DNA of 37,413 nucleotides from Gemmatimonadota bacterium (lineage in GTDB: Bacteria; Gemmatimonadota; Gemmatimonadetes; Longimicrobiales; Gaopeijiaceae). The notes under the pieces are model-generated. The model saw only the letters and a program-made list of their open reading frames with translations, was not told the origin of the DNA and made no database searches. Where the stretch lies: assembly GCA_007125125.1 (NCBI GenBank), contig SLDT01000121.1:1-37413 (forward strand), given 5' to 3'. How positions within the stretch are numbered: the stretch's first letter is position 1; each line of letters starts with the position of its first letter. Below are positions 1,774 through 36,865 of the stretch, one piece after another. Made by a program: the position numbers and the translations under genes.

Positions 1774-1808
1774 CGATGACGGTGACGATGACGATGACGC
1801 CCCCCCCC
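1768..1808 (+). repeat. ATGACG hexanucleotide repeat plus 9-C tract at a gene start
   Basis: Bases 1770-1799 are five tandem ATGACG-type units (the middle one reads GTGACG), followed by nine C (1800-1808). The array contains the previous gene's stop codon, four in-frame ATG and one GTG. Six-base unit changes would keep the reading frame, while slippage in the C tract would break it. Confidence 0.8.
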
Positions 1809-3077
1809 TCGACCCCGGGCCGGGCCCTGCGGTGCACCCTCGCGGCGGTGCTCGTCTGCGTGTTCCTGCCCGTGGCCCTCGCGGCCCAGCACCTCCTCGT
1901 CCCGATGGACCGAGGGCAGATGAACCACCTGAAGGCCTACGGGCTGACCTACTGGGTCCTCGAGCAGGGAGAGACGGCGGAGTGGCTGCTGAACTACCGC
2001 GGGGGTGCCTTCCTCCTGCCCGACCGGGAGGGGGTGCGGAGGGAGGCGGCGCTGCGCGGGGTGGCGGTCGAGTCCCTCTCGGCCGATGCGGAGCTCCGGA
2101 TGCGCGGAGTGATCCTCGAGGGGAACATGGAGGCGGTGCCCCTCGAGAGCCCGCCCCGGATCGCGATCTACACCCCGCCGAACCAGCAGCCCTGGGACGA
2201 TGCGGTCACCCTCGCGCTGACCTACGCGGGGATCCCCTACGAGACGATCTGGGACGGGGAGGTGCTCGAGGGGAGGCTCGACGACTACGACTGGGTGCAC
2301 CTGCACCACGAGGACTTCACCGGGCAGTACTCGAAGTTCTACCCGAGCTACCGGAACGAGCCCTGGATGCGCGACGAGGTGGCGCGCAACGAGGAGATGG
2401 CCAGGCGCTTCGGCTTCTCCGACGTGCCGGCGCTCAAGTCGGAGGTGGCCGAGACGCTGCGGGAGTACGTCGTGGGGGGGGGCTTCCTCTTCGCGATGTG
2501 CTCGGCGACGGAGACCCTCGACCTGGCGCTCGCGGCGCGCGACGTGGACATCACCGCGCCCTGGGCCAATGGCCGGCAGCCCGACCCCGACGCGGCCGAG
2601 CGGCTCGACTGGTCGCGGACCTTCGCCTTCCAGGGCGCGCAACCGGAGCTCTCCGGGTCGGTGAACGCCTTCTCGGACATCGACACGCACCAGGTGAACA
2701 CCTTCCGGAGGCAGCCGCTCAGGACCTTCCGGCTCTTCGAGTTCAGCGCGAAGCTCGACCCGGTGCCCTCGATGCTCGTGCAGAACCACGAGTCGGTGCT
2801 CCCGGACTTCTACGGGCTCACGACGGCGTTCCGCGAAGACCGGATCAAGCCGGGGGCGACGATTCTGGCGCGCGACGGGAACCGGGTGAAGTACCTCCAC
2901 GGGACCCTCGGCGAGGGGACCTGGACCTTCTACGGGGGCCATGACCCCGAGGACCCCGAGCATCAGATCGGGGACGCGCCGACGAACCTGGACCTGGTCC
3001 CGAACTCCCCGGGATACCGGCTGATCCTGAACAACGTGCTCTTCCCGGCGGCGCGCCCGACGCCGCGCAAGACCTGA
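1770..3077 (+). CDS. Exported protein of the family often labelled 'asparagine synthetase B', GATase1-like
   Basis: A 435-residue protein. I chose ATG 1770 because it overlaps the previous stop (ATGA). Three more in-frame ATGs (1776, 1788, 1794) and a GTG (1782) follow inside a hexanucleotide repeat, so the real start is ambiguous within 8 codons. After a proline patch comes a signal peptide (about residues 18-38, cleavage near LAAQ), so the protein is exported. The mature start, HLLVPMDRGQMNHLKAYG, and the following LNYRGG are hallmarks of a Bacteroidota/Gemmatimonadota family often annotated asparagine synthetase B. No N-terminal catalytic Cys or ATP-PPi loop is visible, so I regard that name as wrong. 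RIAIYTPP, DYDWVHLHHEDF and VGGGFLFAMCSATET suggest a flavodoxin/GATase1-like fold related to DUF4159. Function unknown. Confidence 0.6.
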   Translation: MTMTVTMTMTPPPSTPGRALRCTLAAVLVCVFLPVALAAQHLLVPMDRGQMNHLKAYGLTYWVLEQGETAEWLLNYRGGAFLLPDREGVRREAALRGVAVESLSADAELRMRGVILEGNMEAVPLESPPRIAIYTPPNQQPWDDAVTLALTYAGIPYETIWDGEVLEGRLDDYDWVHLHHEDFTGQYSKFYPSYRNEPWMRDEVARNEEMARRFGFSDVPALKSEVAETLREYVVGGGFLFAMCSATETLDLALAARDVDITAPWANGRQPDPDAAERLDWSRTFAFQGAQPELSGSVNAFSDIDTHQVNTFRRQPLRTFRLFEFSAKLDPVPSMLVQNHESVLPDFYGLTTAFREDRIKPGATILARDGNRVKYLHGTLGEGTWTFYGGHDPEDPEHQIGDAPTNLDLVPNSPGYRLILNNVLFPAARPTPRKT

Positions 3078-3091
3078 GGGCCCCGGCGCCG

Positions 3092-5710
3092 GTGGAACCT
3101 CTTCGCCTCGCCCCCGAGGCCGCCCGGGCGATCCGTGCCGAGATCGAGCGCGCCGGGGGGCGGGAGGTCTGCTTCCTGGCCTCGGTCGACGGAGCGCGGC
3201 AGATCGTGAACCCGCGGGCGGTGGCGCGCGGGAACCGGCACGCGGTGCTTGCCGCCGCCTCCGGGGCCTCGGCGGGGGAGATCCTCCTGCACAACCACCC
3301 CTCGGGCGAGCTCGAGCCCTCCGACCCGGACCTGGCCCTCGCGGCGCGCGTCTACGAGGAGGGGCTCGGTACGGGGATCATCGACAACGGCGCGACCCGC
3401 CTCTACGTGGTCGTCGAGCCCCCGGAACCCCGCGAGCGGGTCCGGCTCGACCCGGCCGAGGTCACCGCCGCCCTTGCCCCGGGGGGTGCCCTCGCGGCGC
3501 GTCACCCCGGCTTCGAGGACCGCCCCTCGCAGCGTGCGATGGCGACGCGCGTGACGGAGCGCTACAACGAGGGCGGGGTCCTCGTCGTCGAGGCGGGCAC
3601 GGGGACGGGGAAGTCGCTCGCCTACCTCCTCCCCGCGGCGCACTGGGCGCTCGCGAACGGGGAGCGGACCGTCGTCTCGACGAACACGATCAACCTCCAG
3701 GAGCAGCTCGTCGGGAAGGACCTCCCCCTCGTCCAGTCGCTCGTGGACGGGGAGCTGCGCTGGGCCCTCGTGAAGGGGCGCGGGAACTACGTCTCGATCC
3801 GCCGCCTGCTCCTCGCGGCCGAGACCGCCCCCCTCCTCTTCGAGAACGACCGCGCCGCCGAGCTCGAGGCGCTCGTGGAGTGGAGCGAGAACACGCGCGA
3901 CGGCTCCCTCTCGGACCTCGCGACCGCCCCCTCGCCCGAGGTCTGGGAGGAGGTCCGCTCCGACGGGGACATCTGCCTCAAGGCGCGCTGCCCCCACTTC
4001 CAGGCCTGTTTCTACCAGCGCGCACGGAGGAAGGCCGCCTCGGCCGACATCCTCGTCGCGAACCATGCCCTCCTCCTCTCGGACGTGGCGCTCCGCGAGA
4101 CGACGGACAACTGGGCCCAGTCGGCGGTGCTCCCCCCGTATCGCCACGTCGTCCTCGACGAGGCGCACAATGTCGAGGACGCCGCGACGCAGCACCTCGG
4201 CGCCGAGGTGACCCGGATCGGGCTCCTGCGCACCCTCGGGCGCATCGAGCGCAAGGACAGGGGGGTCGTCTCGAGCATCGCCGAGATCCTGCGCGGGGCA
4301 GGGGAGGGGGGCGAGGCCTCCCGCACCCTCCTCCGCATCCAGGACCGCCTCCGCCCGTTGCTCAAGCGGGCGCGCACGAGCCTCGCCGGCTTCTTCGACC
4401 TCCTCGAGCCCCGCGTCCCCTCGGGGACGGACGACCCCCTCCGCCTCGGGCGCGGCGACCCGCGGGACCCGGGCGAGGATCCCGAGGTGATCGCCGCCCT
4501 CGACCGCCTCACCGCCGCGCTCGGCCGGCTCGAGCGCGAGGTCGAGGAGCTCCGCCTCCGCCTCGAGGGCGACGAAGTCGTGCGGGAGCGCCTCGAGGGG
4601 CGGCTTCTCGACCTCCGGTCCCTCGAGCGGCGCCTCGAGGGGGCCCGCCACGGGCTCTCCCTCGTCCTCGACCCCGGCGAGCGGGAGAGCGCCTTCGTGC
4701 GCTGGATCGAGGGGGAGTGGCGCGACGGGATCCTCCGCAACGTGCGTCTCGCTGCGGCCCCCGTCGAACCCGGCCAGCGGCTCCGCGCCGCCCTCTTCGA
4801 GCGGGTCGAGGCCGCCGTGCTCACCTCGGCGACCCTCTCGGTCGGGCGGGGCGGGTTCGGCTTCGTCCGGGGCCGGCTCGGCCTCGACGCCTCCGACCCC
4901 GCACCCCCTGTGCAGGAGGCCGAGCACCCGGCCTTCGAACTCGCCTTCGCCGATCCGACCCCGGTCATCGACCTCTCGGCCGAGGCGGCCCCGCCCCCCC
5001 TCGAGGTCGTCGAGGAGGTCGTGGCCTCGCCCTTCCGTTACGAGGAGCAGGCACTCTTCGCGGTCCCGACCGACCTCCCGGACGCGGGGGCCGCTCCCGC
5101 GTTCCAGGCCGCCACCGCGCGCGTCACCCTCGAGCTCGCCGCGATGACCGGGGGGGGCATCTTCGTGCTCTTCACCTCGTACCGCGCGATGCGCGACGTT
5201 GCGCACCGCCTCCGGCAGTCGGGCGAGGAGGGCCGCCGCCCCCTCCTCGTCCAGGGCGAGGCCCCCCGCCACCGCCTCCTCGCCGACTTCATCCGCTCGG
5301 AGCGGGCGATTCTCCTCGGGACGACCTCCTTCTGGGAGGGGGTCGACGTCCCGGGCGAGCCCCTGCGCGGCCTCATCATCCAGAAACTCCCCTTCCGGGT
5401 TCCCTCCGAGCCGGTCACCCAGGCCCGCATGGAGGCGCTCGAGGCCCGGGGGAAGAGTCCCTTCAACGGCTACCTCCTCCCCCTCGCGGCCCTCCGGCTC
5501 AAGCAGGGGTTCGGGCGCCTCATCCGGGCCCGGAGCGATCGCGGGGCGATTCTCCTCCTCGACCACCGGATCCTCACGAAGGGCTACGGGCGCCTCCTCC
5601 TCGGAGCGCTCCCTCCAGCCCCCCTCGTGAAGGGCCCCTGGGAGGAGCTCCGCACCAGCCTGCGGGCCTTCTACGGGGAGCCCGCTTGCTCCCCGGGGCC
5701 CGATGGGTAG
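3092..5710 (+). CDS. JAMM (RadC-like) domain fused to DinG/XPD-family ATP-dependent DNA helicase
   Basis: An 872-residue protein, GTG start, with GAGGG at 3076-3080 as a plausible ribosome site. Residues about 10-115 are a RadC-type JAB/MPN domain with an intact JAMM motif: E25, H67-N-H69, S77 and D80 in HNHPSG..PSDPD. The rest is an SF2 DinG/XPD-type helicase: Walker A AGTGTGKS (168-175), DEAH box 356-359, LTSATLS motif, motif V region ILLGTTSFWEGVDVPG (about 738-752) and motif VI QGFGRLIR (about 803-810). Three cysteines of the Fe-S cluster arrangement are present (C295, C300, C306), but the first expected ligand in KGRGNYVS is Ser235. The family unwinds DNA or DNA-RNA hybrids 5'-3' during repair; the JAMM domain predicts zinc-dependent peptidase activity or a structural role. 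It begins 14 bp after the exported protein. Confidence 0.9.
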   Translation: MEPLRLAPEAARAIRAEIERAGGREVCFLASVDGARQIVNPRAVARGNRHAVLAAASGASAGEILLHNHPSGELEPSDPDLALAARVYEEGLGTGIIDNGATRLYVVVEPPEPRERVRLDPAEVTAALAPGGALAARHPGFEDRPSQRAMATRVTERYNEGGVLVVEAGTGTGKSLAYLLPAAHWALANGERTVVSTNTINLQEQLVGKDLPLVQSLVDGELRWALVKGRGNYVSIRRLLLAAETAPLLFENDRAAELEALVEWSENTRDGSLSDLATAPSPEVWEEVRSDGDICLKARCPHFQACFYQRARRKAASADILVANHALLLSDVALRETTDNWAQSAVLPPYRHVVLDEAHNVEDAATQHLGAEVTRIGLLRTLGRIERKDRGVVSSIAEILRGAGEGGEASRTLLRIQDRLRPLLKRARTSLAGFFDLLEPRVPSGTDDPLRLGRGDPRDPGEDPEVIAALDRLTAALGRLEREVEELRLRLEGDEVVRERLEGRLLDLRSLERRLEGARHGLSLVLDPGERESAFVRWIEGEWRDGILRNVRLAAAPVEPGQRLRAALFERVEAAVLTSATLSVGRGGFGFVRGRLGLDASDPAPPVQEAEHPAFELAFADPTPVIDLSAEAAPPPLEVVEEVVASPFRYEEQALFAVPTDLPDAGAAPAFQAATARVTLELAAMTGGGIFVLFTSYRAMRDVAHRLRQSGEEGRRPLLVQGEAPRHRLLADFIRSERAILLGTTSFWEGVDVPGEPLRGLIIQKLPFRVPSEPVTQARMEALEARGKSPFNGYLLPLAALRLKQGFGRLIRARSDRGAILLLDHRILTKGYGRLLLGALPPAPLVKGPWEELRTSLRAFYGEPACSPGPDG

Positions 5711-5713
5711 ATT
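5686..5713 (+). promoter_or_regulatory. Candidate sigma-70-type promoter
   Basis: TTGCTC (5686-5691) and TAGATT (5708-5713) are 16 bp apart, overlapping the helicase stop codon, about 90 bp upstream of the small membrane protein gene. The AT-rich TAGATTAGAA stands out in this very GC-rich sequence. The -10 matches TATAAT at 4 of 6 positions and the -35 at only 3 of 6. No mapped transcript is available. Confidence 0.35.
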
Positions 5714-5803
5714 AGAACGTCCCCCCCGCGGGGACGCAGCCGAACGCGGTCGAGCGGCCCCCTCCGCCCTGCCGCCCCCCATCCCACTCCGGACCCGGAT
5801 TCC

Positions 5804-6007
5804 ATGACCCGCATCTTCGGTCTTGCGGTTGGTGCCCTCTGGCTCGTCTTCACCTACATGGCCTTCAGCGCGGGCTCGGCCGGGCGCCAGGCAGGACAGC
5901 CGGACGTCGCCTTCTGGTACACGGCCACGGCGCTTCTTCTCGGACTCGCGGCGCTCGTCGCCATCGTGGGCACCCTCCGCCACCGTCCGTCCGGCCCGCG
6001 CAAGTAG
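5804..6007 (+). CDS. Small two-helix membrane protein
   Basis: A 67-residue protein with two hydrophobic segments (about residues 5-23 and 40-58) separated by a polar Gly/Gln loop, and a basic tail ending HRPSGPRK. By the positive-inside rule this tail is probably cytoplasmic. There is a 93-bp gap before it carrying a candidate promoter, and the fumarylacetoacetate-hydrolase family gene follows 9 bp after its stop. I recognise no family. The two clean membrane helices and the tight downstream spacing favour a real gene over a chance frame. Confidence 0.6.
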   Translation: MTRIFGLAVGALWLVFTYMAFSAGSAGRQAGQPDVAFWYTATALLLGLAALVAIVGTLRHRPSGPRK

Positions 6008-6016
6008 CCAGCGGCG

Positions 6017-6655
6017 ATGGTGGCCAAACCTCCGCGTCCGGGCAAGATTGTCTGCGTCGGACGGAACTACGCCGCGCACGCCCGCGAGCTTGGCCACGAG
6101 GTTCCCGCCGAGCCCCTCCTCTTTTTCAAGCCCCCTTCGGCGATCATCCCTGCGGGCGGTGAGATCGTCGTTCCTGCCGGCGTCGGCCGGGTCGACTTCG
6201 AGGGCGAGGTTGCCTTCGTCGTCGGCACCCGCGCACGGAGCGTTCCCCGTGAAGAAGGGTGGGGCGTGCTCTCCCACCTCGCCGCGGCGAACGACGTGAC
6301 CGCGCGCGACCTCCAGCGGACCGACGGGCAGTGGACGCGGGCCAAGGGCTTCGACACCTTCCTCCCCCTCGGCGAGCCGGTGGCCCTCGAGGGAGTCGAC
6401 CGCGATGCCCTCGAGCTGCGCACCCTCGTGAACGGGGAGCTCCGCCAGCTCGGCCGGATCGGGGAGATGATCTTCGACCCGCCGACCCTCGTGAGCTTCA
6501 TCTCGGGGATCATGACCCTCGAACCGGGCGACCTGATCCTGACGGGGACCCCGGAGGGTGTGGGCCCCCTCGCCCCGGGGGACGAGGTCCAGGTCCGGAT
6601 CGAGGGGGCGCCCCCCCTGCGGAACCGCGTCGTGGCGGGTGCCCGGGATGGGTGA
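6017..6655 (+). CDS. Fumarylacetoacetate hydrolase (FAH) family protein, acylpyruvase/YcgM-like
   Basis: A 212-residue protein, the usual length for single-domain FAHD1/YcgM-type enzymes. The FAH fold signatures are all visible: KIVCVGRNYAAH (10-21), FFKPPSA (36-42), the metal ligands E62 and E64 in DFEGE, D93 in ANDVTARD, K110 in RAKGFD, and LILTGTPEGVG (173-183). Family members cleave or decarboxylate C-C bonds of acylpyruvates or oxaloacetate, or act as hydratases, using Mg2+ or Mn2+ in the cytosol. The sequence alone does not identify the substrate. It overlaps the aminotransferase gene by 8 bp, so the two may act on a common 2-oxo/amino acid route (inference). Confidence 0.85.
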   Translation: MVAKPPRPGKIVCVGRNYAAHARELGHEVPAEPLLFFKPPSAIIPAGGEIVVPAGVGRVDFEGEVAFVVGTRARSVPREEGWGVLSHLAAANDVTARDLQRTDGQWTRAKGFDTFLPLGEPVALEGVDRDALELRTLVNGELRQLGRIGEMIFDPPTLVSFISGIMTLEPGDLILTGTPEGVGPLAPGDEVQVRIEGAPPLRNRVVAGARDG

Positions 6656-11340: not shown

Positions 11341-14300
11341 ATGAGCGAGGAACGGGCGATCTCGAGGGCTCCTGCCCGGGCCGCAGGGGCCGAGTTCGAG
11401 GGCATGGAGACGCCCCCCGAACTGCGACCGGATCGCACCCGTGGGAGGCTCGTGGCCTACCTGCTCCTCGCCATCGTGCTCGGAGCGGTCGCCTTTCGCG
11501 TCGCGGGCGACGGAACGCAGATGGCGCCCGAGCTGCGGTCTGTCCTCGAGATCACGGCCGTCGTTCTGGCGATCATGATCGCTGCGCTCGCACTCGTCCG
11601 GTTCTACTCCGGGCGGAACCGGACGATTCTCTACATCGGCACCGGCTTTCTCTGCACGGCGTTCCTCGACGCCCATCATGCCTTTGTCACGAGTCCGGCA
11701 GGTCCCTTTTCCATCTCCATCCAGACTGAAGCGGCAGACCTCTCGGTCTGGACCTGGCTCGCTTCGCGACTCTTCCTGTCGCTCTTCCTCTTCGTGAGCT
11801 GGCTGGCCTGGTACGTGGAGGAGCGGGAGAAGGGGGCTGCCGCCGAGGAGATGGAAGATGAGCTGTCCGTCTACATCACCGCCTTCGGCCTGACCGGACT
11901 CATCTTCGCCTTCTTCCTCCTGACCCCCCTGCCGGGAGCCTTCCGGCCCGACTCGGCCTTTACGCGACCGATGGAGCTCGGGCCCGCGGTCTTCTTTCTT
12001 CTTGCCACCCTTGGATACCTGCGAAAGGGTACCTGGAGGAGAGACTCCTTCGAACACTGGCTCATTCTCGCTCTCATCGCCGGCCTGATGGCCCAGGGCG
12101 GTATCCTTCCCTACTCGAACACACCCGATGACCTTCCTGATCTCACAGGTCGGATCCTGAAGGTCACCGGATACCTCTTCGTGCTGGTGGGTCTATTGAC
12201 GAGCGTGCACTCGGCCTTCCGGCAGCAGGCAGGTGTCGCCGACGCGGTTCTTGCGGCGAACACGGCGCTGGCGCGGGAGGTCGAACAGCGTCGGCGTGCC
12301 GAGACCATCCTGTTGGAGAAGGAAGAGCGGCTCAGCGACCTGCTCGACCATGCGAACGACCTTGTCCAGACGACGGACCCCGAGGGCCGGCTGCTCTACG
12401 TGAACCGCACGTGGTTGCGTGTCTTCGGGTTCGGCGACGGGGAATGGAAGGGGCTGAACGTGTTCTCACTCGTCGATCCCTCCATGCGGGACAGGCTGCG
12501 GGAGGTCCTGCGAGGGGCGTTGGGAGGCGAGACGATGGGTGGCTACCGGCTCTCCTTCCGCACGAAAGAAGGGGAGCAGGTCGTGCTCGAGGGTAGTGCG
12601 AACGCCCGCTTCGAGGATGGAAGGCCGACGGCCGTGCGAACGATCTTTCGCGACGTGACGGAACAGACCCGGGTCGAGCAGGAGCTGGCCCGATCGCGGG
12701 CGAACCTCGATGCGCTCTTTGAAAGCACGGGTGACGCCATCTGGTCCGTGGATTCGGACCACCGCCTCGTGGCTTTCAACTCTGCCTTCTCCCTCACATC
12801 CGAGGCGATCACCGGGCGGGCACCGAAGCCGGGACAGGAACCCGAGTACGTCGTGGCACCCTGGGAGGTGTCATGGTTCCGCGAGTGCTATGGCCGCGCG
12901 CTTCAGGGCCACCGCTTCTCGGCTTCCCGAGAGGAACGACTGGCGGGGGAACTGCGCACCTACGAGCTCTACTTTCATCCGCTTGAAGGGCCGGAGGGGC
13001 CGGAGGGGGTTGTGGTCTTCAGCAGGGACATCACCCGGCGCAAGCAGATGGACATTGCGCTTCGGGAGGCCAAGAAGGAGGCGGAACAGGCGAACTGGGC
13101 AAAGAGCCAGTTCATGGCGAACATGAGCCACGAACTGCGCACCCCGCTGAATTCCGTGATCGGCTTTGCGAACCTTCTTCTGCGCAACCGTGCCGGTAAC
13201 CTGGGCGATCGCGACCGCGAGTTCCTCGAGCGAATTGTCTACAACGGGAAGCACCTGCTCGACCTGATCAACCAGATCCTCGACCTCTCGAAGATCGAGG
13301 CGGGGAGAATGGACCTGGACCTCCGTGAAATCCGGCTGCAGGAGTTCGTGCCCTCCGTCATCTCCCAGCTCGAGGGCCAGGTGGCCCATCGCCCCGTCGA
13401 CCTGCGCCACCACTGGAGCGGGGAGCTTGTACCACTGCATACGGATGAGAGCAAGCTCAGGCAGGTGCTCATCAACCTGGTTGGCAATGCGCTCAAATTC
13501 ACGGAGGAGGGCAGCGTGACCGTCGAGATCGAGACCGAGTCGGAGAGCGGTATGGCTCGACGAATCCATGTACGAGACACGGGGATCGGCATTCCCGAAG
13601 ACCGGCTCCAGGCGATCTTCGAGGCGTTCAGGCAGGCTGATGGCAGCACCGCGCGCCGTTTCGGCGGGACGGGGCTTGGCCTTGCCATCTCGAGGGCGCT
13701 GTGCAACCTCCTCGGGTACTCGCTCTCCGTCACCTCGATCGAAGGCGAGGGTTCGACCTTCACGGTTCACCTCGATGGCGGTCGGGACCCGAGCGTCCGA
13801 AGCCGGCCGGAGGTCGAAGTCGAAGCAGGGGATCGAGAAGCGTCCGAAGCCCAGTTCCACCTCTCTCCACTCGCGGGGAGGCGCGTGCTCGTCGTCGATG
13901 ACGATCCCGAGGTTCGGACCCTGGTCGCCGGGCATCTCGAAGATCAGGGGTGCGAGGTAACGAACGCGGCGAGCGGAAGGGCCGCTCTCGCCACGGCGAG
14001 GGCCAGTCGCCCCGAGATGATCATCACGAAGCTCCTGATGCCGGGGATGAGCGGATGGGAGTTGCTCGAGCGGCTCCGCGACGACCCGGAACTCGCGGAC
14101 ATCCCCGCCGTGATGACCTCGTTGCTCGAGGCAGGGGTCGATGACGACGTGCCCGGGCCGATCGACCTCCTGCGCCGACCGGTCGACCGGGAACGCTTGA
14201 TCCGTGTCTACGGGCGCACGATGCTCTCGTCACACGGGCGCGCACTCGTGGTCGACCGCGACTCGCGCAGTCGTGGGACGGTCCGGCGCTACCTCGAAGA

Positions 14301-14613
14301 GGCCGGGCTTGTCGTACACACGGTCGACGAGGTCGAACAGGGGAGAGAGCTCCTCGAGCGCATGGAGGTGGACCTGGTGCTCCTCGGTCTGGGTGACTCT
14401 CTGGTCGAGCGGCTGGGTCTGGCCGAGGCACTCCGACAGACGGGGCACGGGGTCCCGGTGGTACTCCTGCTCTCGGAGAACAGCAACGGTGCGGAGCGGG
14501 AGGTGCTGCGCACGCCCCTGAACCGAGACCAACCCGACAGCCTGGACCGTGGCGGGGCCATCGTGGACATGCTCGGCAGGTACTTTGGGACCCGAACCGG
14601 GGTCATCGCATGA
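11341..14613 (+). CDS. Membrane hybrid histidine kinase, two PAS domains, two degenerate receivers
   Basis: A 1090-residue protein. About seven or eight membrane helices lie between residues 38 and 295 (MASE3-like; GFLCTAFLDAHHAF is typical). PAS domains follow at about 330-445 and 455-570. HisKA carries H597 in MSHELRTPLNS. The ATPase domain shows the N box near N716 (NLVGNALKF), DTGIGIP near 745 and GGTGLGLAIS. Two receiver-like domains end the protein (about 846-960 and 963-1085). The first keeps VVDDDPEV but has K897 where the phosphoacceptor Asp belongs (IITKLLMPGMSG). The second has G1016 there (LVLLGLGDS). The kinase core looks active, but phosphotransfer within the molecule should be impossible. 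The signal sensed is unknown. It overlaps the next gene by ATGA. Confidence 0.9.
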   Translation: MSEERAISRAPARAAGAEFEGMETPPELRPDRTRGRLVAYLLLAIVLGAVAFRVAGDGTQMAPELRSVLEITAVVLAIMIAALALVRFYSGRNRTILYIGTGFLCTAFLDAHHAFVTSPAGPFSISIQTEAADLSVWTWLASRLFLSLFLFVSWLAWYVEEREKGAAAEEMEDELSVYITAFGLTGLIFAFFLLTPLPGAFRPDSAFTRPMELGPAVFFLLATLGYLRKGTWRRDSFEHWLILALIAGLMAQGGILPYSNTPDDLPDLTGRILKVTGYLFVLVGLLTSVHSAFRQQAGVADAVLAANTALAREVEQRRRAETILLEKEERLSDLLDHANDLVQTTDPEGRLLYVNRTWLRVFGFGDGEWKGLNVFSLVDPSMRDRLREVLRGALGGETMGGYRLSFRTKEGEQVVLEGSANARFEDGRPTAVRTIFRDVTEQTRVEQELARSRANLDALFESTGDAIWSVDSDHRLVAFNSAFSLTSEAITGRAPKPGQEPEYVVAPWEVSWFRECYGRALQGHRFSASREERLAGELRTYELYFHPLEGPEGPEGVVVFSRDITRRKQMDIALREAKKEAEQANWAKSQFMANMSHELRTPLNSVIGFANLLLRNRAGNLGDRDREFLERIVYNGKHLLDLINQILDLSKIEAGRMDLDLREIRLQEFVPSVISQLEGQVAHRPVDLRHHWSGELVPLHTDESKLRQVLINLVGNALKFTEEGSVTVEIETESESGMARRIHVRDTGIGIPEDRLQAIFEAFRQADGSTARRFGGTGLGLAISRALCNLLGYSLSVTSIEGEGSTFTVHLDGGRDPSVRSRPEVEVEAGDREASEAQFHLSPLAGRRVLVVDDDPEVRTLVAGHLEDQGCEVTNAASGRAALATARASRPEMIITKLLMPGMSGWELLERLRDDPELADIPAVMTSLLEAGVDDDVPGPIDLLRRPVDRERLIRVYGRTMLSSHGRALVVDRDSRSRGTVRRYLEEAGLVVHTVDEVEQGRELLERMEVDLVLLGLGDSLVERLGLAEALRQTGHGVPVVLLLSENSNGAEREVLRTPLNRDQPDSLDRGGAIVDMLGRYFGTRTGVIA

Positions 14614-27435: not shown

Positions 27436-27450
27436 CGGGTTGACTACCCG
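27436..27450 (-). terminator. Weak hairpin at the glucan synthase stop codon
   Basis: CGGGT/ACCCG, a 5-bp stem with a 5-nt loop, overlaps the stop codon. There is no U tract, so it is at best a weak attenuation or RNA-end structure. Confidence 0.2.
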
Positions 27451-30400
27451 GCTTCGCCTTCCGGGGTTCGACCGGAGGCGCCGAGAACAACCCTGATCGC
27501 AGCAGCCCCCTCGGTGGGGAGGGGAATCGCCCCCGGGTCGACGTCCCTCCCGTCGACACGGCACGTCCGGATCCCGCGCGACACCCCGTCGGGGTTGTCG
27601 ACTCGAATCTCGACCCGGCGCCCCTCGATCACCCACTCCACCTCGAAGCCGGGCCAGTCCGGAGGGATCGTGGGATCGAGCAGGAGCCGGTCGCCCTCCC
27701 GCCGCAGCCCGAGGATGTCTTCAAGGGTGACCCGATAGATCCAGCCCGCGGAGCCCGTGTACCAGGTCCACCCTCCTCGTCCCGTGTGCGGGTGGGTCCC
27801 GTAGATGTCGGCCGCCACGACGTAGGGCTCCACCCGGTAGCGTGCCGTCCCTTCGGCCCCTTCCGCATGGCGCACCGGGAGGATCTGCTCGAGGAGCTGG
27901 CCCGCCCGGGCGCCGTCGCCCGTCCGGGCAAAGGCGCTCATGAGCCAGGCCGCCGCGTGCGTGTACTGTCCACCATTCTCCCGGACCCCTGGCGGGTAGG
28001 TGGCGATGTATCCGGGGTGAGGGCCGTGCCCGTCGAAGGGCGGAGTGAGGAGGAGCGAGAGCCCCGACTCGCGATCCACGAGCCGCTCCCAGGCCGACTC
28101 GAGGGCCCGAGCGGCCCGAGCCGGGTCGGCCCCACCCGAAAGCACGGACCATGACTGGGCGATCGAGTCGATCCGAGCCTCGGGAGCGAGACGCGAGCCG
28201 AGGGGCGCGCCATTGTCGAAGAAGGCGCGGCGGTACCAGTCTCCGTCCCACCCAGTCGCCTCCACCGCAGCGAAGAGGGCATTCATGCGCTCCTCGAACT
28301 CGCGTGCGAACCCGGTCTCACCCCGGCGCACCGCCACCTCCGACATCGCCCTCAGGACCGTCCCCATGAACCATGCCATCCAGATGCTCTCGCCCCTGCC
28401 GTCGCGGCCAACGCGGTCCATTCCGTCGTTCCAGTCACCCGTGCCGATGAGAGGAAGTCCCCGCGCCCCCCGTCGACCCCAGGCGAGCTCCACCGCCCGG
28501 CATGCATGCTCCCACAGCGTCCCTTCCTCGGTCGACTGCTCGAACGCCTGGTAGCGCTCGTCCGTTCCCTCGCCGAGGGGTTCTCCACGGAGGAAGGGAA
28601 CCCTCCGTTCCAGGAGTTCGAGGTCGCCCGTCCATCGCACCGTTCCACAGAGCACGAAGGGGAGCCAGAGCAGGTCGTCCGAGCAGCGCGTGCGCACGCC
28701 CCGCGTCGTCCCCGGATGCCACCAGTGGAGCACGTCGCCCTCTTCGAACTGCCGGGCGGCGGCCTCCTCGAGCTGGCGCCGGGCGAGCCCGGGGTCGAGG
28801 TGGAGCATCGTGTAGGCGTCCTGGAGCTGGTCCCGGAAGCCGAAGGCCCCTCCCGACTGGTAGAAGCCGGTGCGCCCGCGGATCCGCGACGAGAGGGTCT
28901 GGTAGGGGAGCCAGCCGTTCACCATCCGGTCGAGGGCCTGATTCGGAGTGCGAACGCGGACCCGCTCGAGGAGGCGTGTCCACTCCGGGCGAGAGACCCT
29001 CGGTGCCGGGGGCGGAGCCGGAGCGTCCGATCGAACTCGAGCGAGCCGTTCGACAAGTTCGTCCCGGTCGTCGGCGACCCCCAGGAAGAAGCAGACCTCT
29101 TCGACCGCTCCGGGTGCGATCACGAGCTGGGTCTGGAGCGCTCCGCAGGCTTCGCCCTGGCTGCGCGCTCCCTCGGAGAAGCGCCCGGGTTCGAGGCCCG
29201 CAGGCCGACGATCGAGGCGTCCGGGACGCCCGAGGAACTCCTCCCGGTCGACGCTCGCTCCGTCCGGGGCCCTGTCCGTGGTGAGGAAGGCAAGCCGTCC
29301 GGCGAACCCCTCGACGAAGGGATTGCGGGCGATGATGGCTCGTAGCGCAGGATCGTAGCGCGAGAGGATGTGGGCGTTCGTCGCCTGCCGGTGCGTGCCG
29401 AGGACCCAGTCCGCGAAGAAGGCGATCTGAATTCTCCGCGTGCGTTCGCCGCGGTTCTCGAGCCGGACCCGGACCACCTTCACGGGCTCTGCAGGGTGAA
29501 GGCTCCACTCGACCACCTCGAGGAGCCCGGGGGAACCGGCCTCGAGGCGCGACCCTCCCCACCCGTGGCGAACCCGGTGCGCCCGCCTGCGTCCCAGCGG
29601 TCGGGGACTCGGACTCCAGAGTTCTCCACTCTCCTCATCCCGGAGATAGACGACTTCGCCCGGAAGGTCGAGGACCGGGTCGTTCGACCAGGGCGTCAGC
29701 CGAAACTCCCCCGCATCGCCCGCCCAGGTGAATCCGCCCCCGGCCTCCGTCACCAGGAAGCCGATCTCGTCCCGGGCCACGACGTTCGCCCAGGGGGCGG
29801 GGGTCACCTCGCCCGGCCCGAGTTCGACGAGGTACTCGCCCGAGTCTGCTTCGAACCCGCCGTGGGCCGAAGGCTCGGAAAGCGTTGGGAGGGGTTCCAG
29901 CTCCGGCTCCCGTTCGCCGGGACGAGGGAGCGCCGGAGCCGGGGTGGCCGGCGGAAAGACGCGTGCCCCTGCCCGCAGCTCCTCGAGGTTCCGTGCGAGG
30001 TCGCCCCGACCCTGGTCGAGGGAGACGGTCGCCAGCAGGCGCAACACCTCGCGCTCCTCGGCAGCGAGCTCCCGTGTTGGCACGATGTGCACCCCGCCCC
30101 GGCCCCCGAGGTCGGGCGCGTGCGGTTCGTGGAGCACGCCACGCACGAGGTCGCGCACCGGGTCTTCGTAGCCACCGCCCCCCTCGTCTTCGACCACGAG
30201 GTCGACCGTGAGCCCTCGCGCTCGCCAGAATGCCTGGGCGCGGAGCAGGGAAACAAGGAGCTCCGGGTCGTCCGGGTTTCGAATCCGGAGGTGCACGATC
30301 GGGAAGTCGCCGGAGATGCCCCAGCGCCATAGCCTCGGCATGGACAGGTCATCGCCCCCGGCCGGGGCGAGCCCGACTCGCCGGACACCTCTCGGATAGA

Positions 30401-33400
30401 GTGTGTGCGAGAGGAGTTCTTCCCAGAGCGGAAGTTCCGCCGGCTCGGCACCCAGCTCGAGGAGTTCTCCCTCGGCTCGGGAGCGGGCGTGGACCACGAG
30501 CCAGTTCGCACGCCGCGAGGTGGCGAGGTCGACAAGACTGCGTTCCACCTCCGCCGCCTCCCGTCCCGCCCCGAGAACGAGGGTGAGACGAGCCTCCCCG
30601 AAGGCTGGCAGTTCGAGCTCGACGATCGCGGCCGCGATCGGGTCGATCGGGTGCCAGGGCTCGGACAGCGTCGCCGGGGCCGAGGGACGGGTGAGTGCCC
30701 GTGGGGCATCCGGTGAGCCTCCCCTTCCGAAGAAGGCCATCCGGTCGCTCTCCCATCCGACGACGCGTGCCGTCTTCGAGGTCTCCGAGCGGAGGGTGAT
30801 CCCGAGGGCCGGGGGGTCCTCGTCCGCACCTCTCGGGCGCCGCTCGAAGAGGAGGCCCTCCGCACCCGTCAGGGGGCGCACCCGAACGAAGAGCTTGTGG
30901 AAGGCAGGGTGCCGGAGATCGTCGCCCGGGGGGGCGAGGGCGATCTCCTGCCAGAGGGCAAGGCGCAGCCTTCGCGTCTCTCCTCCCTCGTTCACGAAGC
31001 GAAGGGTGCGGATCTCGATGTCGTCCTGGGGGGCCACGCTCACCCGCATGTGGGCCCGCAGGCCACGCGCTCGCCCGAGGTACTCCGCTCCATGGGGGAA
31101 GAAGGTGATTCGCGCCTCGTCTGCTTCGTCGCCCGGCTCCGGGAAGGGGCCCCAGGGGCTTCCCCCCTCCTCGTCGAGGACCCTGAGGTGCGGTCCGCCC
31201 GGCGCCCGGCCAGGCCCGGGGTGACCGCGCACAAGGCTCCACTCGCCCCAGCGGGAGCTTCCTGCTCCCGAGGATCCGAGGTGCAGGGCATAGCGGCCGT
31301 TCGACAGGAGGTGGACCGGGGGGGGCAGGCGGTCGGCCGCCGGCTGCCAGGGGGTGAAGGCCTCCTCGTCGAAGGCCGGAGTCCGGGGTGCCGGGGTCGA
31401 CAGGCGGACCTCCTGGGTGCCCCGCCGCCAGGGAATCCGCTCGTGGAGGAAGGGCTCGACCGTGCCCATCCGCGGATCCCGATGCATGCGCTCGACATGC
31501 CGATCGCCCGTGAGGTAGTTCCCCAGCGCGGCGAGGATCATCCCGTGGTGGTGGCTCATGTACGAACGCACGACGGCGGGACCGTCATCGCTCTCCCGGG
31601 TGCGACCGAAGTCCAGGGCCTCGTAGGGACCCCACGGACCCATGCCGCCAAGAGCCCTCAGTCGCTCGAGGTTCTTCTCCACCGCCGCAGGGGCCCAGGC
31701 GACGGCCATGAGCGAGGCGTAGGGGGCCACGACGTGACGCGGCTCCGTCTCGCGACGGAGCGCAAGGTCGGAGATCCCGAAGGCACGGTACTGATAGTGT
31801 CCCTGGTGGTCCAGGAGGTGATACCCCGACTCGGAGACCCCCCACGGACGCTTCACTTTCTCGCCGTGCCGGCGCTGCACCCGGATGGCCTGGGACACGG
31901 CGGCGTGGAGGAGGGACTCCGGAGGGGTCCGGAGAAAGAGGGTTGGCATGACGTACTCGAACATCGTGCCGGACCAGGAGAGGAGGACGGGCCCGCCCGC
32001 GGCCTCCACGAAGGGGCGCCCGAGGTGCAGGTAGTGCTCGAGCGGAACGTCGCCGCGGGCCATCGCAACCGCCGACGCGATCCGGGCCTCCGAGGCGAGC
32101 AGGTCGTAGTGGTTCCGGTCGAGTTCCCCGTCGCTGAGCGAGAGGCCGATCCGAAAGAGCCGTCGACGACTGTCATAGAGGAACCCGAACTCCATCTCGC
32201 CGACCCAGCGGTCCAGCTCCGCTTCGACGAGATCGAGGTCACGGGCGATGAGCTCGGCCGACGCCCGGCTCCGGGCAAGAGCTGTGCTCAGGGGACCATC
32301 CGCATCTCCGAGTGCACGCTCTGCCTCGCGCAGCCGGGCCGGAAGGTCCTTCAGCGCGGGAGCGGGCTCCAGGATGCTCCGGACGAGGCCCTCGTTCGCC
32401 TCTTCGTTCGCGGAGAGTCCGAGCCAGGGGGCGAAGAGCGACACCTCGAAGCGGGCCTGCTCCACCTCGGCACGAAGGTGTCCGAGCCAGGCCGCGGTGG
32501 GTTCGCCACTTGCTCCGGAGCTGCTTCCCTGTCTGGTGGTGGCGCGAAGGAGGTGGGCCGAGAGCTCGGGGAGAAAGCGGTCCTGCAGCGTCTCGAGACA
32601 GTCCGACCAACTCTCCAGGTCGAGCCCACCCGGAGCGAGGCTGGCCGTGCTCCAGTCCTCGAGGCGCGCAAGGGCCGAGTGGATCCCGCTTCCCGGCGCT
32701 CCGTTTCCGCTCTCCCGGGCGACCTCGCGCAGGACCCGGATCGTGTCATGCACGCCACGAGCGCGCACTCCCGGACGGGGTCCATGGCTCCGGAGCTCTT
32801 CCAGTGCCCCGCGCACGACGAGGAGGGAGGCGGCGAGGTTGCCCGAGTCGACGGTCGATACGTAGAGCGGCGAGAGGGGTGCAAGGGTGCGCGTGTCGTA
32901 CCAGTTCAGGAGGTGTCCACGATGCCGATGGAGGCGTCCCATCGTGCTCAGGGTGTTGCCGATGCGCGCAATCAGGTGGGGCGAGCCAACGAAACCCAGG
33001 TCCCACGCGGTGAGGCTCGAGACGAGGGCCATTCCGATGTTCGTCGGGGAGGTGCGCTCGGCGAGGATGCCCCGCGGGTCTTCCTGGAAGTTGTCGGGAG
33101 GAAGCCAGTTCGTCTCGGGGCCCTGGAAGCGCTCGAAGAATCCCCAGGTCCGGCGCGCGAGGAGCCGTGCCTCGACCGGAGGAAAGGTGCCTTCGTCCGG
33201 TTCGGGGAGCGGGCGCCGCTCCACGGCGCTGAGCTGCGCGAGGGCGGGCGAGGCGAGCCAGAGAAGGAGGATCGCCGCGACCCAGGCTGGAAAGGAGTCG
33301 CCGGGCGAGAGGAGTGCGAGGGCTCCGAGTCCCAGGGCCAGCACGGGCCCTGCCCACATGTCGCGCGTGATCCGAACGAGCGAGGGACGTGAGCCGAGGC

Positions 33401-35873
33401 TCCGTGCAACTGCGGCAGCGGTCGTCCACTCGAGGAGCCCTCGCCGTGTGCGATGGACCCGGTTCAGCGTCCGGACGATGGCGTCAAGGTTCGAGCGTGC
33501 CTCGGCCGGGAGGAAGGCGAGCTCGAGCAGCCCCCGTCCGGCGGCGCGCCACAGCGCTCTGGCCTCCGACCCGAGATCGCCCCTCGTGGGAGGGGTGCGC
33601 ATGGCCCGGACGAGCGCATCGAGGAGGGAGAAGAAGACGGGGAGCCCCAGGGTCAGGGCGGCGAGCGCCCCGACCGCGCCGGCCATCTCCGGGTAGAGTG
33701 TCCACGAGAGCACCAGGAGAAGGAGGAGCGCCGGGGGCTGGAGGGAACGCCGAAGGTTGTCGAGGACCTGCCAGCGAGCAAGGAGGCCGAGGGGGTTTCG
33801 GCCCCGCCGGCCTCCGGGAAGGGGTACGTGACGGCCAAGCCAGGGCAGGAGCTGCCAGTCGCCCCGTATCCACCGGTGCGATCGGCGCAGCCAGGCCAGC
33901 GGATGGGCGGGGAAGTCCTCGAGAACGATCACGTCGGCCACGTAGCCGGCCCGGCCGTGCGAGCCCTCGAACAGATCGTGGCTCAGGATGCTGTTTTCCG
34001 GCACGCGACCGTGCAGGCTGGCCTCGAAGGCCGCGACATCGTAGATCCCCTTCCCGGCGAAGATTCCCTCGTCGTAGAGGTCCTGGTAGACGTCGAAGGC
34101 GGCATGGGCATAGAGGTCGAGGCCCCGCATCCCCCCGAAGATCCGGAAGAAGGGGGTGTCGCCGCCGGGGTCGGGAAGGATCTCGAGGCGCGGCTGGAGC
34201 ACCGTGTAGCCTTCCTCCACCCCCCGATCGGGCCCGAGACGGGGGCGGTTGAGGGGATGCGCGTGGGTGCCGACCAGACGCTGCGCGGCCCCGCGCGGGA
34301 GGAGCGTGTCCTGGTCCAGGGTGATGACGAAGGGAATCTGTCTCAGCCGTTCCCGGTCTCCGGCGGCCACCCAGAGCTCGGAGGGTGACCCGAGGAGCAG
34401 GGCATTGAACTGACTGAGCTTTCCGCGCTTGCGCTCCCATCCCATCCAGCAGCCTTCGGCTTCGTTCCATCGCCTTCCTCGATGGAGGAGGACGAACGGC
34501 CCGCCCGCTCCTTCGCGACCATAGCGAGCGTTCAGACGGTCGATCTCCCTTCGGGCGGTCTCAAGGAGGTGTTCGTCTTCGGGGAGGCGCTCGCTGGGTG
34601 CGTCCGGGAAGTCCGAGAGAAGGACGAAGGTGACCGCGGGATCGGGGTTTGCGAGGTAGTTCACCTCGAGGGTGTGCACGACCTCGCGGATCGCCTCGGG
34701 CGAGGCGAGCATCGTGGGCACGGCCACCGCGGTGGCTGCTTCGGGGGGAATGCCCTGCCGGAAGTCCATTCGCGGAAGGGCGCGGGGACGCACGACACGA
34801 CCCACCGCCCAGTTCGTGAGCGAGACCGAGATGCCGAGAATCGGGATGAAGGCGAGCCCGAGGAGGAGCAGGGCCGCCCCGGGGGCAAGACCGGCCCCGA
34901 GCGCGAGGAGCCCGGCCAGCGCGAGCGCAACGATGCAGCAGGGATAGGCGATCCCGAGGAGTGCGCGACGGCGAGCGGGTGAGGTGCGGATCGAGGGTCT
35001 CGCCCCGAGGGTCCGGATCAGCTCCTCTGCCTGTCGACCGATGAGCCAGGCACCGACGTGATGGGAGCGCTCGCCGGACACCGCCTGACTCGCGAGCTCG
35101 ATCGCCGTGCGGGCGACCTCGGGCTCGGACCGGCCGGTGGCGTGGGCGATGTCCTCGACGGCATGGCGGTACCGGTCCCGGGTCCGGAAGTCCATCCCTC
35201 GGTGGAGTCCCGCCGGGTCCTCGCGAAGGAGCGACTCGACGATCGACAGCTCCTCGACGAACTCTCTCCAGTCCTGGTTGCCCGCTACGCGCAGGGACAC
35301 CACGCCGGAGCCGATGCGACCACCAGCGACCTGCTTTCCGGTCGTCTCCTGCACCTCTCGGTCGAGCCACTCGAGCAACGCGAGGCGTAGCATGACGGGA
35401 AGTGCCCAGAGTTCCGCGAGCGAGAGAGGCTCGCGCTCTTGGAATCCGCGGATGAAGTGGCGCAGCTCCTCCAGCTCGAGCCGCCCCTGAACGGCGTCGA
35501 CCCAGTGGCGCGCGATCAGGTCGGCGCGCGTCGAGGCGGGGCCGTTGCCAGACTGCTCGGGGAGGAGGGGGAGACGGCGGCAGAGTCCGGGGGTGAGCGA
35601 CTCGAGAATCGTGTCGAGTGCTCCTTCGATGACGTACTCGTTGTCGAGGATCCACGCCGCGGCCTGACGGGGCAGGGAGGGCCGGGCTCCGGACTCCGTC
35701 AGGGAGCGGAGGTGCTCCCGAAATCCACCTTCGAGCTTTCGTGCCCGAGCACGGAGGTCACGAGCCGAACCCCTGCGGGGGTCGAGGGGCCGGCCCCGCC
35801 GACGGAATTCATCGGCCAGCTCCCGGCCTTCGCGTCGTGCCTCCCGGATCTTCCTTGCGGCTGCCGGGATCAT
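27444..35873 (-). CDS. ndvB: Cyclic beta-1,2-glucan synthase-like (GT84-glycoamylase-GH94)
   Basis: A 2809-residue protein, the usual size of rhizobial NdvB/Cgs (about 2800-2900). ATG 35873 overlaps the stress-protein stop (ATGA). Order: a helical N-terminus; membrane helices about 300-360; a GT84 domain (about 390-700) with TLDQDT near 516-521, SHDLFEG and RRSHRWIRGDWQ near 663-675; further helices about 705-755 and 835-880; a glycoamylase-like domain (about 1225-1500; LLSWSGTMFEYVMP, WGVSESGYH); carbohydrate-binding modules; and a C-terminal GH94 domain with GDWNDGM at D2480-D2483. Known homologues initiate, elongate, cyclise and trim beta-1,2-glucan from UDP-glucose at the inner membrane. 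No ndvA-like exporter is in the window. Whether the product here is cyclic is unproven. Confidence 0.9.
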   Translation of the reverse strand: MIPAAARKIREARREGRELADEFRRRGRPLDPRRGSARDLRARARKLEGGFREHLRSLTESGARPSLPRQAAAWILDNEYVIEGALDTILESLTPGLCRRLPLLPEQSGNGPASTRADLIARHWVDAVQGRLELEELRHFIRGFQEREPLSLAELWALPVMLRLALLEWLDREVQETTGKQVAGGRIGSGVVSLRVAGNQDWREFVEELSIVESLLREDPAGLHRGMDFRTRDRYRHAVEDIAHATGRSEPEVARTAIELASQAVSGERSHHVGAWLIGRQAEELIRTLGARPSIRTSPARRRALLGIAYPCCIVALALAGLLALGAGLAPGAALLLLGLAFIPILGISVSLTNWAVGRVVRPRALPRMDFRQGIPPEAATAVAVPTMLASPEAIREVVHTLEVNYLANPDPAVTFVLLSDFPDAPSERLPEDEHLLETARREIDRLNARYGREGAGGPFVLLHRGRRWNEAEGCWMGWERKRGKLSQFNALLLGSPSELWVAAGDRERLRQIPFVITLDQDTLLPRGAAQRLVGTHAHPLNRPRLGPDRGVEEGYTVLQPRLEILPDPGGDTPFFRIFGGMRGLDLYAHAAFDVYQDLYDEGIFAGKGIYDVAAFEASLHGRVPENSILSHDLFEGSHGRAGYVADVIVLEDFPAHPLAWLRRSHRWIRGDWQLLPWLGRHVPLPGGRRGRNPLGLLARWQVLDNLRRSLQPPALLLLLVLSWTLYPEMAGAVGALAALTLGLPVFFSLLDALVRAMRTPPTRGDLGSEARALWRAAGRGLLELAFLPAEARSNLDAIVRTLNRVHRTRRGLLEWTTAAAVARSLGSRPSLVRITRDMWAGPVLALGLGALALLSPGDSFPAWVAAILLLWLASPALAQLSAVERRPLPEPDEGTFPPVEARLLARRTWGFFERFQGPETNWLPPDNFQEDPRGILAERTSPTNIGMALVSSLTAWDLGFVGSPHLIARIGNTLSTMGRLHRHRGHLLNWYDTRTLAPLSPLYVSTVDSGNLAASLLVVRGALEELRSHGPRPGVRARGVHDTIRVLREVARESGNGAPGSGIHSALARLEDWSTASLAPGGLDLESWSDCLETLQDRFLPELSAHLLRATTRQGSSSGASGEPTAAWLGHLRAEVEQARFEVSLFAPWLGLSANEEANEGLVRSILEPAPALKDLPARLREAERALGDADGPLSTALARSRASAELIARDLDLVEAELDRWVGEMEFGFLYDSRRRLFRIGLSLSDGELDRNHYDLLASEARIASAVAMARGDVPLEHYLHLGRPFVEAAGGPVLLSWSGTMFEYVMPTLFLRTPPESLLHAAVSQAIRVQRRHGEKVKRPWGVSESGYHLLDHQGHYQYRAFGISDLALRRETEPRHVVAPYASLMAVAWAPAAVEKNLERLRALGGMGPWGPYEALDFGRTRESDDGPAVVRSYMSHHHGMILAALGNYLTGDRHVERMHRDPRMGTVEPFLHERIPWRRGTQEVRLSTPAPRTPAFDEEAFTPWQPAADRLPPPVHLLSNGRYALHLGSSGAGSSRWGEWSLVRGHPGPGRAPGGPHLRVLDEEGGSPWGPFPEPGDEADEARITFFPHGAEYLGRARGLRAHMRVSVAPQDDIEIRTLRFVNEGGETRRLRLALWQEIALAPPGDDLRHPAFHKLFVRVRPLTGAEGLLFERRPRGADEDPPALGITLRSETSKTARVVGWESDRMAFFGRGGSPDAPRALTRPSAPATLSEPWHPIDPIAAAIVELELPAFGEARLTLVLGAGREAAEVERSLVDLATSRRANWLVVHARSRAEGELLELGAEPAELPLWEELLSHTLYPRGVRRVGLAPAGGDDLSMPRLWRWGISGDFPIVHLRIRNPDDPELLVSLLRAQAFWRARGLTVDLVVEDEGGGGYEDPVRDLVRGVLHEPHAPDLGGRGGVHIVPTRELAAEEREVLRLLATVSLDQGRGDLARNLEELRAGARVFPPATPAPALPRPGEREPELEPLPTLSEPSAHGGFEADSGEYLVELGPGEVTPAPWANVVARDEIGFLVTEAGGGFTWAGDAGEFRLTPWSNDPVLDLPGEVVYLRDEESGELWSPSPRPLGRRRAHRVRHGWGGSRLEAGSPGLLEVVEWSLHPAEPVKVVRVRLENRGERTRRIQIAFFADWVLGTHRQATNAHILSRYDPALRAIIARNPFVEGFAGRLAFLTTDRAPDGASVDREEFLGRPGRLDRRPAGLEPGRFSEGARSQGEACGALQTQLVIAPGAVEEVCFFLGVADDRDELVERLARVRSDAPAPPPAPRVSRPEWTRLLERVRVRTPNQALDRMVNGWLPYQTLSSRIRGRTGFYQSGGAFGFRDQLQDAYTMLHLDPGLARRQLEEAAARQFEEGDVLHWWHPGTTRGVRTRCSDDLLWLPFVLCGTVRWTGDLELLERRVPFLRGEPLGEGTDERYQAFEQSTEEGTLWEHACRAVELAWGRRGARGLPLIGTGDWNDGMDRVGRDGRGESIWMAWFMGTVLRAMSEVAVRRGETGFAREFEERMNALFAAVEATGWDGDWYRRAFFDNGAPLGSRLAPEARIDSIAQSWSVLSGGADPARAARALESAWERLVDRESGLSLLLTPPFDGHGPHPGYIATYPPGVRENGGQYTHAAAWLMSAFARTGDGARAGQLLEQILPVRHAEGAEGTARYRVEPYVVAADIYGTHPHTGRGGWTWYTGSAGWIYRVTLEDILGLRREGDRLLLDPTIPPDWPGFEVEWVIEGRRVEIRVDNPDGVSRGIRTCRVDGRDVDPGAIPLPTEGAAAIRVVLGASGRTPEGEAG

Positions 35874-36865
35874 CCGGTCTGATGCCTCGACGTTGTTCGG
35901 GGTCGGGGAGAGCTCTTGGCGGAGCGGTCTTCGAGCACACCTGCCGGGGCACCCTCGCCGGCCATGTCCTGCAGGAGAAGTAACGGCTGGGACGCCGAGA
36001 GGAGCGTCGTGGCCGCCACGCTGCCGAGGGGCCACTCCGTGGCTGCTCCCCGACCGTGGGCCGAGAGGACGATCAGGTCCGAGGCACGGGTCGTGGCAAG
36101 ACGATTCAGCGTCCTGGCCACACCACCGTCGGGTTCGACAATGAGGCCTTCGATCTCAAGCTCTTCGCCGCCCAGACAGCGAGCCATCTCGTCCATGTAC
36201 TGGCGGGCCGCACGACGGTTTCCCTCTCGAATCTCCTCGACCGGTGCCGGCATCGTATCGCCCGACGGGTCTCGGCTGAGGACCTCGGGAATCGCAAGAA
36301 CGTGCACCATCTGGAGCCGGGCGCCCGTGGCCCGGGCGAGTCCGGCGGCTACGCCCAGCGCCCAGTCTCCGCGAGGCGAGCAGTCGACGGGGGCAAGGAT
36401 CTCCTGATACTCGAAGGCATCGGGTGATGGCGGCTCGTCCCGGGATCGGACGAGCAGGACCGACACACCGGCACTGATCGTGACGGCGAGCGCGGTTCCT
36501 CCGAGGACGGTGGGAGCCCGCGTGCCGGAGCCGTGATCCGTCACGATGACAAGGTCGTGACCACCACCTCGAATCGCCGCGACGATCTCTTCCGAGGGGA
36601 CACCCTCCCGCACGCGCGTCTTCACCCGAACCCCCGGCTTGCGGAGCCTGCCGGCCACCTCTGACAGGTACGCTTCGGCGCGTGCATCGGCCAGGCGCCA
36701 GGCCAGGGGGTCTGCCGGCTCATCGGGCCCGCGACGGCCCGGGTCGTTCACCACCCGCAGGAGTTCGACCTCCGCGCCCAGTGCCCGGGCGAGGAGCGAA
36801 GCATGGCCCAGTGCGCCTTCGGCGGACCGGGAGCCGTCGAGGGGAACGAGAATGCGCTTGATCAT
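35870..36865 (-). CDS. Tandem universal stress protein (UspA ×2)
   Basis: A 331-residue protein with two Usp domains: about 1-145 (start MIKRILVPLDGSRSAEGAL) and about 155-310 (start YQEILAPVDCSPRGDWALG). The ATP-loop region in domain 2 is AHGRGAATEWPLGSVA, close to the G2xG9xG(S/T) consensus. The equivalent in domain 1 (DHGSGTRAPTVLGGTA) is looser. ATG 36865 has GGAGG 5-6 bp upstream; the longer open frame upstream is not Usp-like. The stop overlaps the glucan synthase start, so the two are translated together. That suggests stress- or energy-linked control of glucan production (inference). Confidence 0.9.
   Translation of the reverse strand: MIKRILVPLDGSRSAEGALGHASLLARALGAEVELLRVVNDPGRRGPDEPADPLAWRLADARAEAYLSEVAGRLRKPGVRVKTRVREGVPSEEIVAAIRGGGHDLVIVTDHGSGTRAPTVLGGTALAVTISAGVSVLLVRSRDEPPSPDAFEYQEILAPVDCSPRGDWALGVAAGLARATGARLQMVHVLAIPEVLSRDPSGDTMPAPVEEIREGNRRAARQYMDEMARCLGGEELEIEGLIVEPDGGVARTLNRLATTRASDLIVLSAHGRGAATEWPLGSVAATTLLSASQPLLLLQDMAGEGAPAGVLEDRSAKSSPRPRTTSRHQTG

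Follow-up and report, generated by a model that had tools for sequence, protein, structure and literature searches.

A RadC-type JAMM domain joined to a DinG/YoaA-like helicase in Gemmatimonadota, with a serine at the predicted iron-sulfur site

Introduction

What a RadC-type JAMM domain contributes when it is joined to a DNA helicase is the question raised by one gene in the window, i.e. the whole stretch of 37,413 nucleotides analysed here from a Gemmatimonadota bacterium (GenBank assembly GCA_007125125.1, contig SLDT01000121.1). The function of RadC was listed as unknown in 2003 (PMC300881), and a peptidase is one of the two published leanings for the RadC-type JAMM domain. Iyer and Aravind argued that RadC is a nucleic-acid enzyme without the ubiquitin-tail groove, and cited RadC-DinG fusions in favour of a nuclease and against ubiquitin-type substrates; RadC is also fused to other DNA-binding domains (PMC5512222). 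The fusion found here is not novel but belongs to an architecture already named RadC-like DinG, a subgroup whose reference protein comes from Desulfuromonas soudanensis and which was modelled with zinc and described as never studied experimentally (Cheng 2025, PMC11981726).

Results

Gene and domain architecture

The gene is a single uninterrupted frame on the forward strand without an internal stop, and carries the following features.

3092..5710, + strand: RadC-like DinG gene, 872 aa, GTG start
3092..3421, + strand: N-terminal RadC-type JAMM (JAB/MPN+) domain, residues ~1-110 (Pfam RadC, AlphaFold2 model, Foldseek)
3164..3166, + strand: JAMM E25, the catalytic Glu, invariant in 72 sequences
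3290..3298, + strand: JAMM H67-N68-H69, with metal ligands H67 and H69, invariant in 72 sequences
3320..3331, + strand: JAMM S77-x-x-D80, the motif Ser and the metal ligand Asp, invariant in 72 sequences
3422..3496, + strand: linker, residues 111-135, between the Pfam RadC and DEAD matches, with a short helix at 121-126 in the model
3497..5707, + strand: DinG/YoaA-type SF2 helicase, residues 136-872, with motor domains and Fe-S and Arch regions (profile, sequence and fold matches)
3596..3616, + strand: Walker A GTGTGKS, residues 169-175, conserved
3794..3796, + strand: S235 (TCG), first Fe-S ligand position, aligned with E. coli DinG C120
3974..4009, + strand: the other Fe-S cysteines C295, C300 and C306, Cys in 110 of 110 rows
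4157..4168, + strand: DEAH box, residues 356-359 (family alignment)

At the N-terminus, Pfam RadC (PF04002) matches residues 11-91 with an E-value of 6.4e-7 (29.8 and 34.0 bits against a gathering cut-off of 22.1), and the spacing H67-x-H69-x7-S77-x2-D80 agrees exactly with the E-Xn-HXH-X7-S-X2-D motif on an MPN fold. The AlphaFold2 model of residues 1-137 (pLDDT 95) has RadC 2qlc as its best Foldseek match (E 5.9e-5), followed by CSN5, Rpn11 homologues, AfJAMM and PfJAMM1; among its top 50 structural matches none is described as a nuclease, and all the top ones are JAMM/MPN proteins. In the C-terminal part the helicase motifs are complete in the family alignment, and DEAD, DEAD_2 and Helicase_C_2 each exceed their own Pfam cut-offs. 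The whole-protein model (pLDDT 90.8, pTM 0.89), in which residues 850-860 form a C-terminal helix, matches E. coli DinG 6fwr best (Foldseek E 4.8e-43), and also S. aureus DinG and CasDinG. The second-ranked sequence match (phmmer) is S. aureus DinG, annotated as a 3'-5' exonuclease. The initial annotation had read an intact RadC-type JAMM domain joined to a DinG/XPD helicase, and this is confirmed by the Pfam and fold matches, with E25, H67, H69, S77 and D80 all present at the positions it named. It is almost certain that the protein is a RadC-like DinG, namely a helicase with an N-terminal JAMM domain. A 1104-aa open frame lies antisense to the gene (2963-6277, - strand) and is probably a by-product of the high G+C codon usage.

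Relation to known proteins

With the RadC-like DinG subgroup the protein shares the domain order of an N-terminal RadC-like domain and a DinG-like, more precisely YoaA-like, helicase, the conserved JAMM residues (E, two H and D), and a genome without HolC (PF04364), which was absent from 39 of 39 genomes while the E. coli and Caulobacter controls were positive. It differs in that the window's order (Longimicrobiales) has Ser as the first Fe-S ligand (SCCC). The Fe-S domain of the subgroup has four or three cysteines, three being still counted as Fe-S (Cheng 2025, PMC11981726), and the window protein has three plus Ser235, with a predicted cluster. Another trait of the subgroup is an alpha-7 helix at the C-terminal end of motor domain 2, for which the modelled helix at 850-860 is a candidate counterpart.

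E. coli YoaA and DinG resemble the protein in the helicase, YoaA being its top NCBIfam model (536.8 bits) and DinG its closest fold, but both lack the JAMM domain, and the window protein stays below the YoaA equivalog cut-off of 680 and has no HolC partner. Stand-alone RadC shares the HNHPSG...PSxxD signature and the top structural match, whereas the window domain is fused to a helicase and falls far under the cut-offs of the full-length RadC models NF000642 (28.6 vs 180 bits) and TIGR00608 (24.3 vs 133.85); an ordinary separate RadC is encoded on another contig of the same genome. ExoDinG and pExoDinG likewise join a helicase to an N-terminal domain, catalytic or decayed, which is a DnaQ-type exonuclease there and a JAMM domain here. 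A type IV CRISPR CasDinG was considered as well: PADLOC typeIV_DinG scores 434.7, yet the three Fe-S cysteines are kept, and no csf-like gene was found among the neighbours scanned with Pfam. A defence or CRISPR role was rejected because the cysteines and the gene context do not fit.

Spread of the fusion

Matches were found in 55 of 58 genomes comprising the window's own and near relatives, most of them beginning at residues 1-4, and in 209 of 249 Gemmatimonadota genomes, where nearly all listed matches include the JAMM domain and start at query residues 1-7. Altogether, the fusion occurs in more than 100 assemblies, isolates included (Geobacter argillaceus, Geomonas limicola). Outside the phylum, a GTDB contig scan found it in Desulfuromonadales/Geobacteraceae, isolates among them, in Calditrichota, KSB1 and Sumerlaeota, and further in Acidobacteriota, one Acidimicrobiia bin and Halobacteroidaceae. 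Planctomycetota and Gammaproteobacteria labels inside the window's clade are probably mis-binned; in the tree, one sequence so labelled does not differ from a Gemmatimonadota sequence.

The fusion therefore survives both objections raised in advance, a joining error and relatives with separate genes split near residue 125. In one genome (G099) the JAMM and helicase halves stand apart, and this was rejected as a genuine separate-gene case, because the helicase half sits at a contig end that explains the split. A mobile-element origin was likewise rejected: plasmids and phages match the helicase, with coverage of the query below 80% in every record, and every listed phage match begins downstream of the JAMM domain. 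The fusion is ancient, and it is a chromosomal gene, not one derived from a mobile element.

Constraint on the JAMM site and its repeated loss

No substitution occurs at E25, H67, N68, H69, P70, P76, S77 or D80 in 72 aligned members, which are 33-72% identical to the query. The alignment excluded members whose JAMM domain had already proved decayed or partial, and the invariance is thus a property of the intact class. That the five JAMM residues are invariant at such divergence speaks for a catalytic site.

In other members the site has been lost. In G014, G161 (2.0 Mb) and G033 (1.8 Mb), the JAMM domain is recognisable, with homology of E 4.4e-19 in G161, and its metal site is broken; a Fusobacterium homologue likewise has a decayed JAMM domain (E 2.7e-8). 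This DinG is unannotated, at 2414-4882 of Fusobacterium vincentii NZ_CP084075.1, a record listed as a 2.1 Mb 'plasmid' that looks like a chromosome deposited under that label. In G008, G022 and three f5 genera (g58, g66, g69) the JAMM domain is gone, and similarity begins at about residue 106-116 or later. The helicase of G022 carries DUF1707/SHOCT-like helical repeats at its N-terminus, where the JAMM domain would stand.

The tree gives six changes between intact and lost JAMM sites, a count to be read as about six given the long branches, and the helicase is retained through every one, whether the domain was lost or its active site decayed. Therefore, the JAMM domain is separable from the helicase, and it appears to be an optional accessory enzyme, strictly maintained wherever it is intact. 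The helicase is thus of use even where the JAMM chemistry is gone. Stand-alone RadC is absent from all three Gemmatimonadota genomes with decayed sites, which represent two lineages (g15 and G033), and several genomes with intact sites also have none; with two decayed lineages, redundancy between the JAMM domain and stand-alone RadC is suggestive only.

A serine at the predicted iron-sulfur site

S235 pairs with E. coli DinG C120 in the phmmer alignment. Among the 110 family rows, 53 carry Ser at the first Fe-S position and 57 carry Cys, with no third residue, and the three remaining positions are Cys in all 110. A tree built without the S235 column needs a single switch, and a branch with an SH-aLRT of 96 separates all the Ser rows from the rest. 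In additional genomes Ser is present in the readable copies of f1, f2 and f3 (the window's order), even where the JAMM domain is decayed or missing, the f4 and f5 copies carry Cys where readable, and a second tree again gives one change. The Cys-to-Ser change is thus fixed in the window's order, Ser occurring in every readable copy within it and Cys in every copy outside.

For archaeal XPD, changing Cys to Ser at three of the four cysteines lost the cluster and abolished helicase activity, Cys113 of the T. acidophilum enzyme being the sole tolerant position (PMC2435149). Provided that S235 is ligand position one of four, a fixed Ser there is unexpected, because the corresponding XPD change abolishes helicase activity. 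Either the cluster would be Ser- or solvent-ligated and working, or the window's order would differ in its Fe-S dependence. Cheng 2025 (PMC11981726) mentions single C-to-H/S/D variants for DinG-like proteins in general, and S235 therefore counts as a variant and introduces no new principle. What this analysis adds is the Ser at the predicted Fe-S site (SCCC), fixed by a single change on the tree, and the repeated loss of the JAMM site described above.

Neighbourhood and regulation

The gene directly upstream is the following.

1791..3077, + strand: upstream neighbour, coding part of ~428 aa, start codon uncertain (synteny)

Its product starts with what resembles a signal peptide and matches no Pfam or NCBIfam family. 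The order of a ~430-aa protein without family match, the RadC-like DinG and an FAH-family hydrolase is widely kept in Gemmatimonadota and not elsewhere, and neither of these two neighbours gives a link to DNA repair or protein-crosslink repair. Farther along the window are a 2863-aa frame (27444-36035, - strand) with GH94 supersandwich, GH94 catalytic and glycoamylase domains, which looks like a giant enzyme of the cyclic beta-glucan synthase type, and a hybrid sensor kinase (11341-14613, + strand) with MASE3, PAS, HisKA, HATPase and receiver domains.

A scan for consensus LexA-type boxes in the upstream regions of 32 relatives from outside Gemmatimonadota gave nothing persuasive in 31. In the Geobacteraceae relative L096 a LexA-like palindrome of the Geobacter type, GGTTCACATATGTAAACC, lies 78 bases ahead of the gene start. 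SOS control was rejected, this being the one clear palindrome among the 32.

Discussion

Based on these findings, we propose, tentatively and with a probability of roughly 0.37, that the protein couples its motor to a JAMM hydrolase acting on a protein obstacle, where both the substrate and the coupling are what we infer. First, the Fe-S-type motor (XPD/DinG/YoaA-like) would translocate 5'-to-3' on single-stranded DNA where there are gaps, stalled forks or other disturbances. Upon meeting a bound or crosslinked protein it would push into it and unfold the obstacle, and the tethered JAMM site could then hydrolyse what has been exposed, the favoured target being a DNA-bound protein, cut at a peptide or isopeptide bond. 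The direction of translocation and the zinc are presumed from knowledge of the families. The protein would thereby resemble FANCJ and SPRTN in one chain: FANCJ, which belongs to the XPD family of helicases, unfolds crosslinked proteins for cleavage by SPRTN (PMC12279946). The likeness, an XPD-family helicase plus a metalloprotease on DNA, is a functional analogy only, as those are two separate eukaryotic proteins and SPRTN is a SprT-type protease, not a JAMM enzyme. A protein obstacle appears slightly more likely than nucleic acid as the JAMM substrate; the JAMM active site and the precedent of FANCJ and SPRTN (PMC12279946) tip the balance.

The structural matches to RadC and to JAMM peptidases count for this proposal, as do the invariant JAMM residues, the complete helicase motifs, the repeated loss that marks the JAMM site as separable, and the presence of the fusion in most Gemmatimonadota and several other phyla; the nuclease argument for the RadC branch, the N-terminal nucleases of other DinG subgroups, the uninformative neighbours and the scarce SOS boxes in relatives outside Gemmatimonadota count against it. 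The initial annotation suggested a peptidase that removes or trims a protein on DNA or on R-loops ahead of the helicase. A peptidase is compatible with the fold and the site, whose top structural matches are all JAMM/MPN proteins, and is opposed by the argument that the RadC branch is a nuclease (PMC5512222), while nothing was found in support of the R-loop link. A fuller version, a one-chain machine for DNA-protein-crosslink repair in which an XPD-family motor feeds its own JAMM protease and which in the window's order would run with a Ser-ligated (3 Cys + 1 Ser) cluster, seems decidedly doubtful. We know of no JAMM protein of the RadC branch with demonstrated peptidase activity.

The rival that survives best, though rather unlikely, is that the JAMM domain hydrolyses nucleic acid, as a nuclease or otherwise, and would be the metal-dependent equivalent of the ExoDinG DnaQ domain, cutting the strand exposed by the motor. 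It sits at the same N-terminal position as the nucleases of other DinG subgroups (PMC11981726), RadC fusions to DNA-binding domains point the same way (PMC5512222), and so does the second-ranked match to the putative exonuclease DinG of S. aureus; the metal site, however, is of the JAMM hydrolase type, and neither our top 50 structural neighbours nor the DALI search of Cheng 2025, which found no structural similarity of the RadC-like domain to nucleases (PMC11981726), include a described one. It is unlikely that the domain is mainly structural or regulatory, through protein-protein docking or metal sensing, with hydrolase activity minor. G014, G161, G033 and the Fusobacterium homologue do keep the JAMM fold and not the metal ligands, and other lineages manage without the domain, but in intact members the catalytic residues themselves, beyond the fold, are invariant, and the lack of stand-alone RadC in both decayed lineages hints that the chemistry became dispensable there. 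That a sequencing or assembly error fused two genes has virtually no chance of being right, for it is supported by nothing except the odd architecture and is refuted by relatives, the identical fusion recurring across assemblies that include isolates.

The fusion places the RadC-type JAMM domain, a puzzle since 2003, on a DNA motor of a defined kind. Through the natural Cys-to-Ser change one can ask whether four thiolate ligands are a requirement of XPD-family helicases, and the intact, decayed and deleted JAMM versions found within one phylum make peptidase, nuclease and structural roles separable by experiment.
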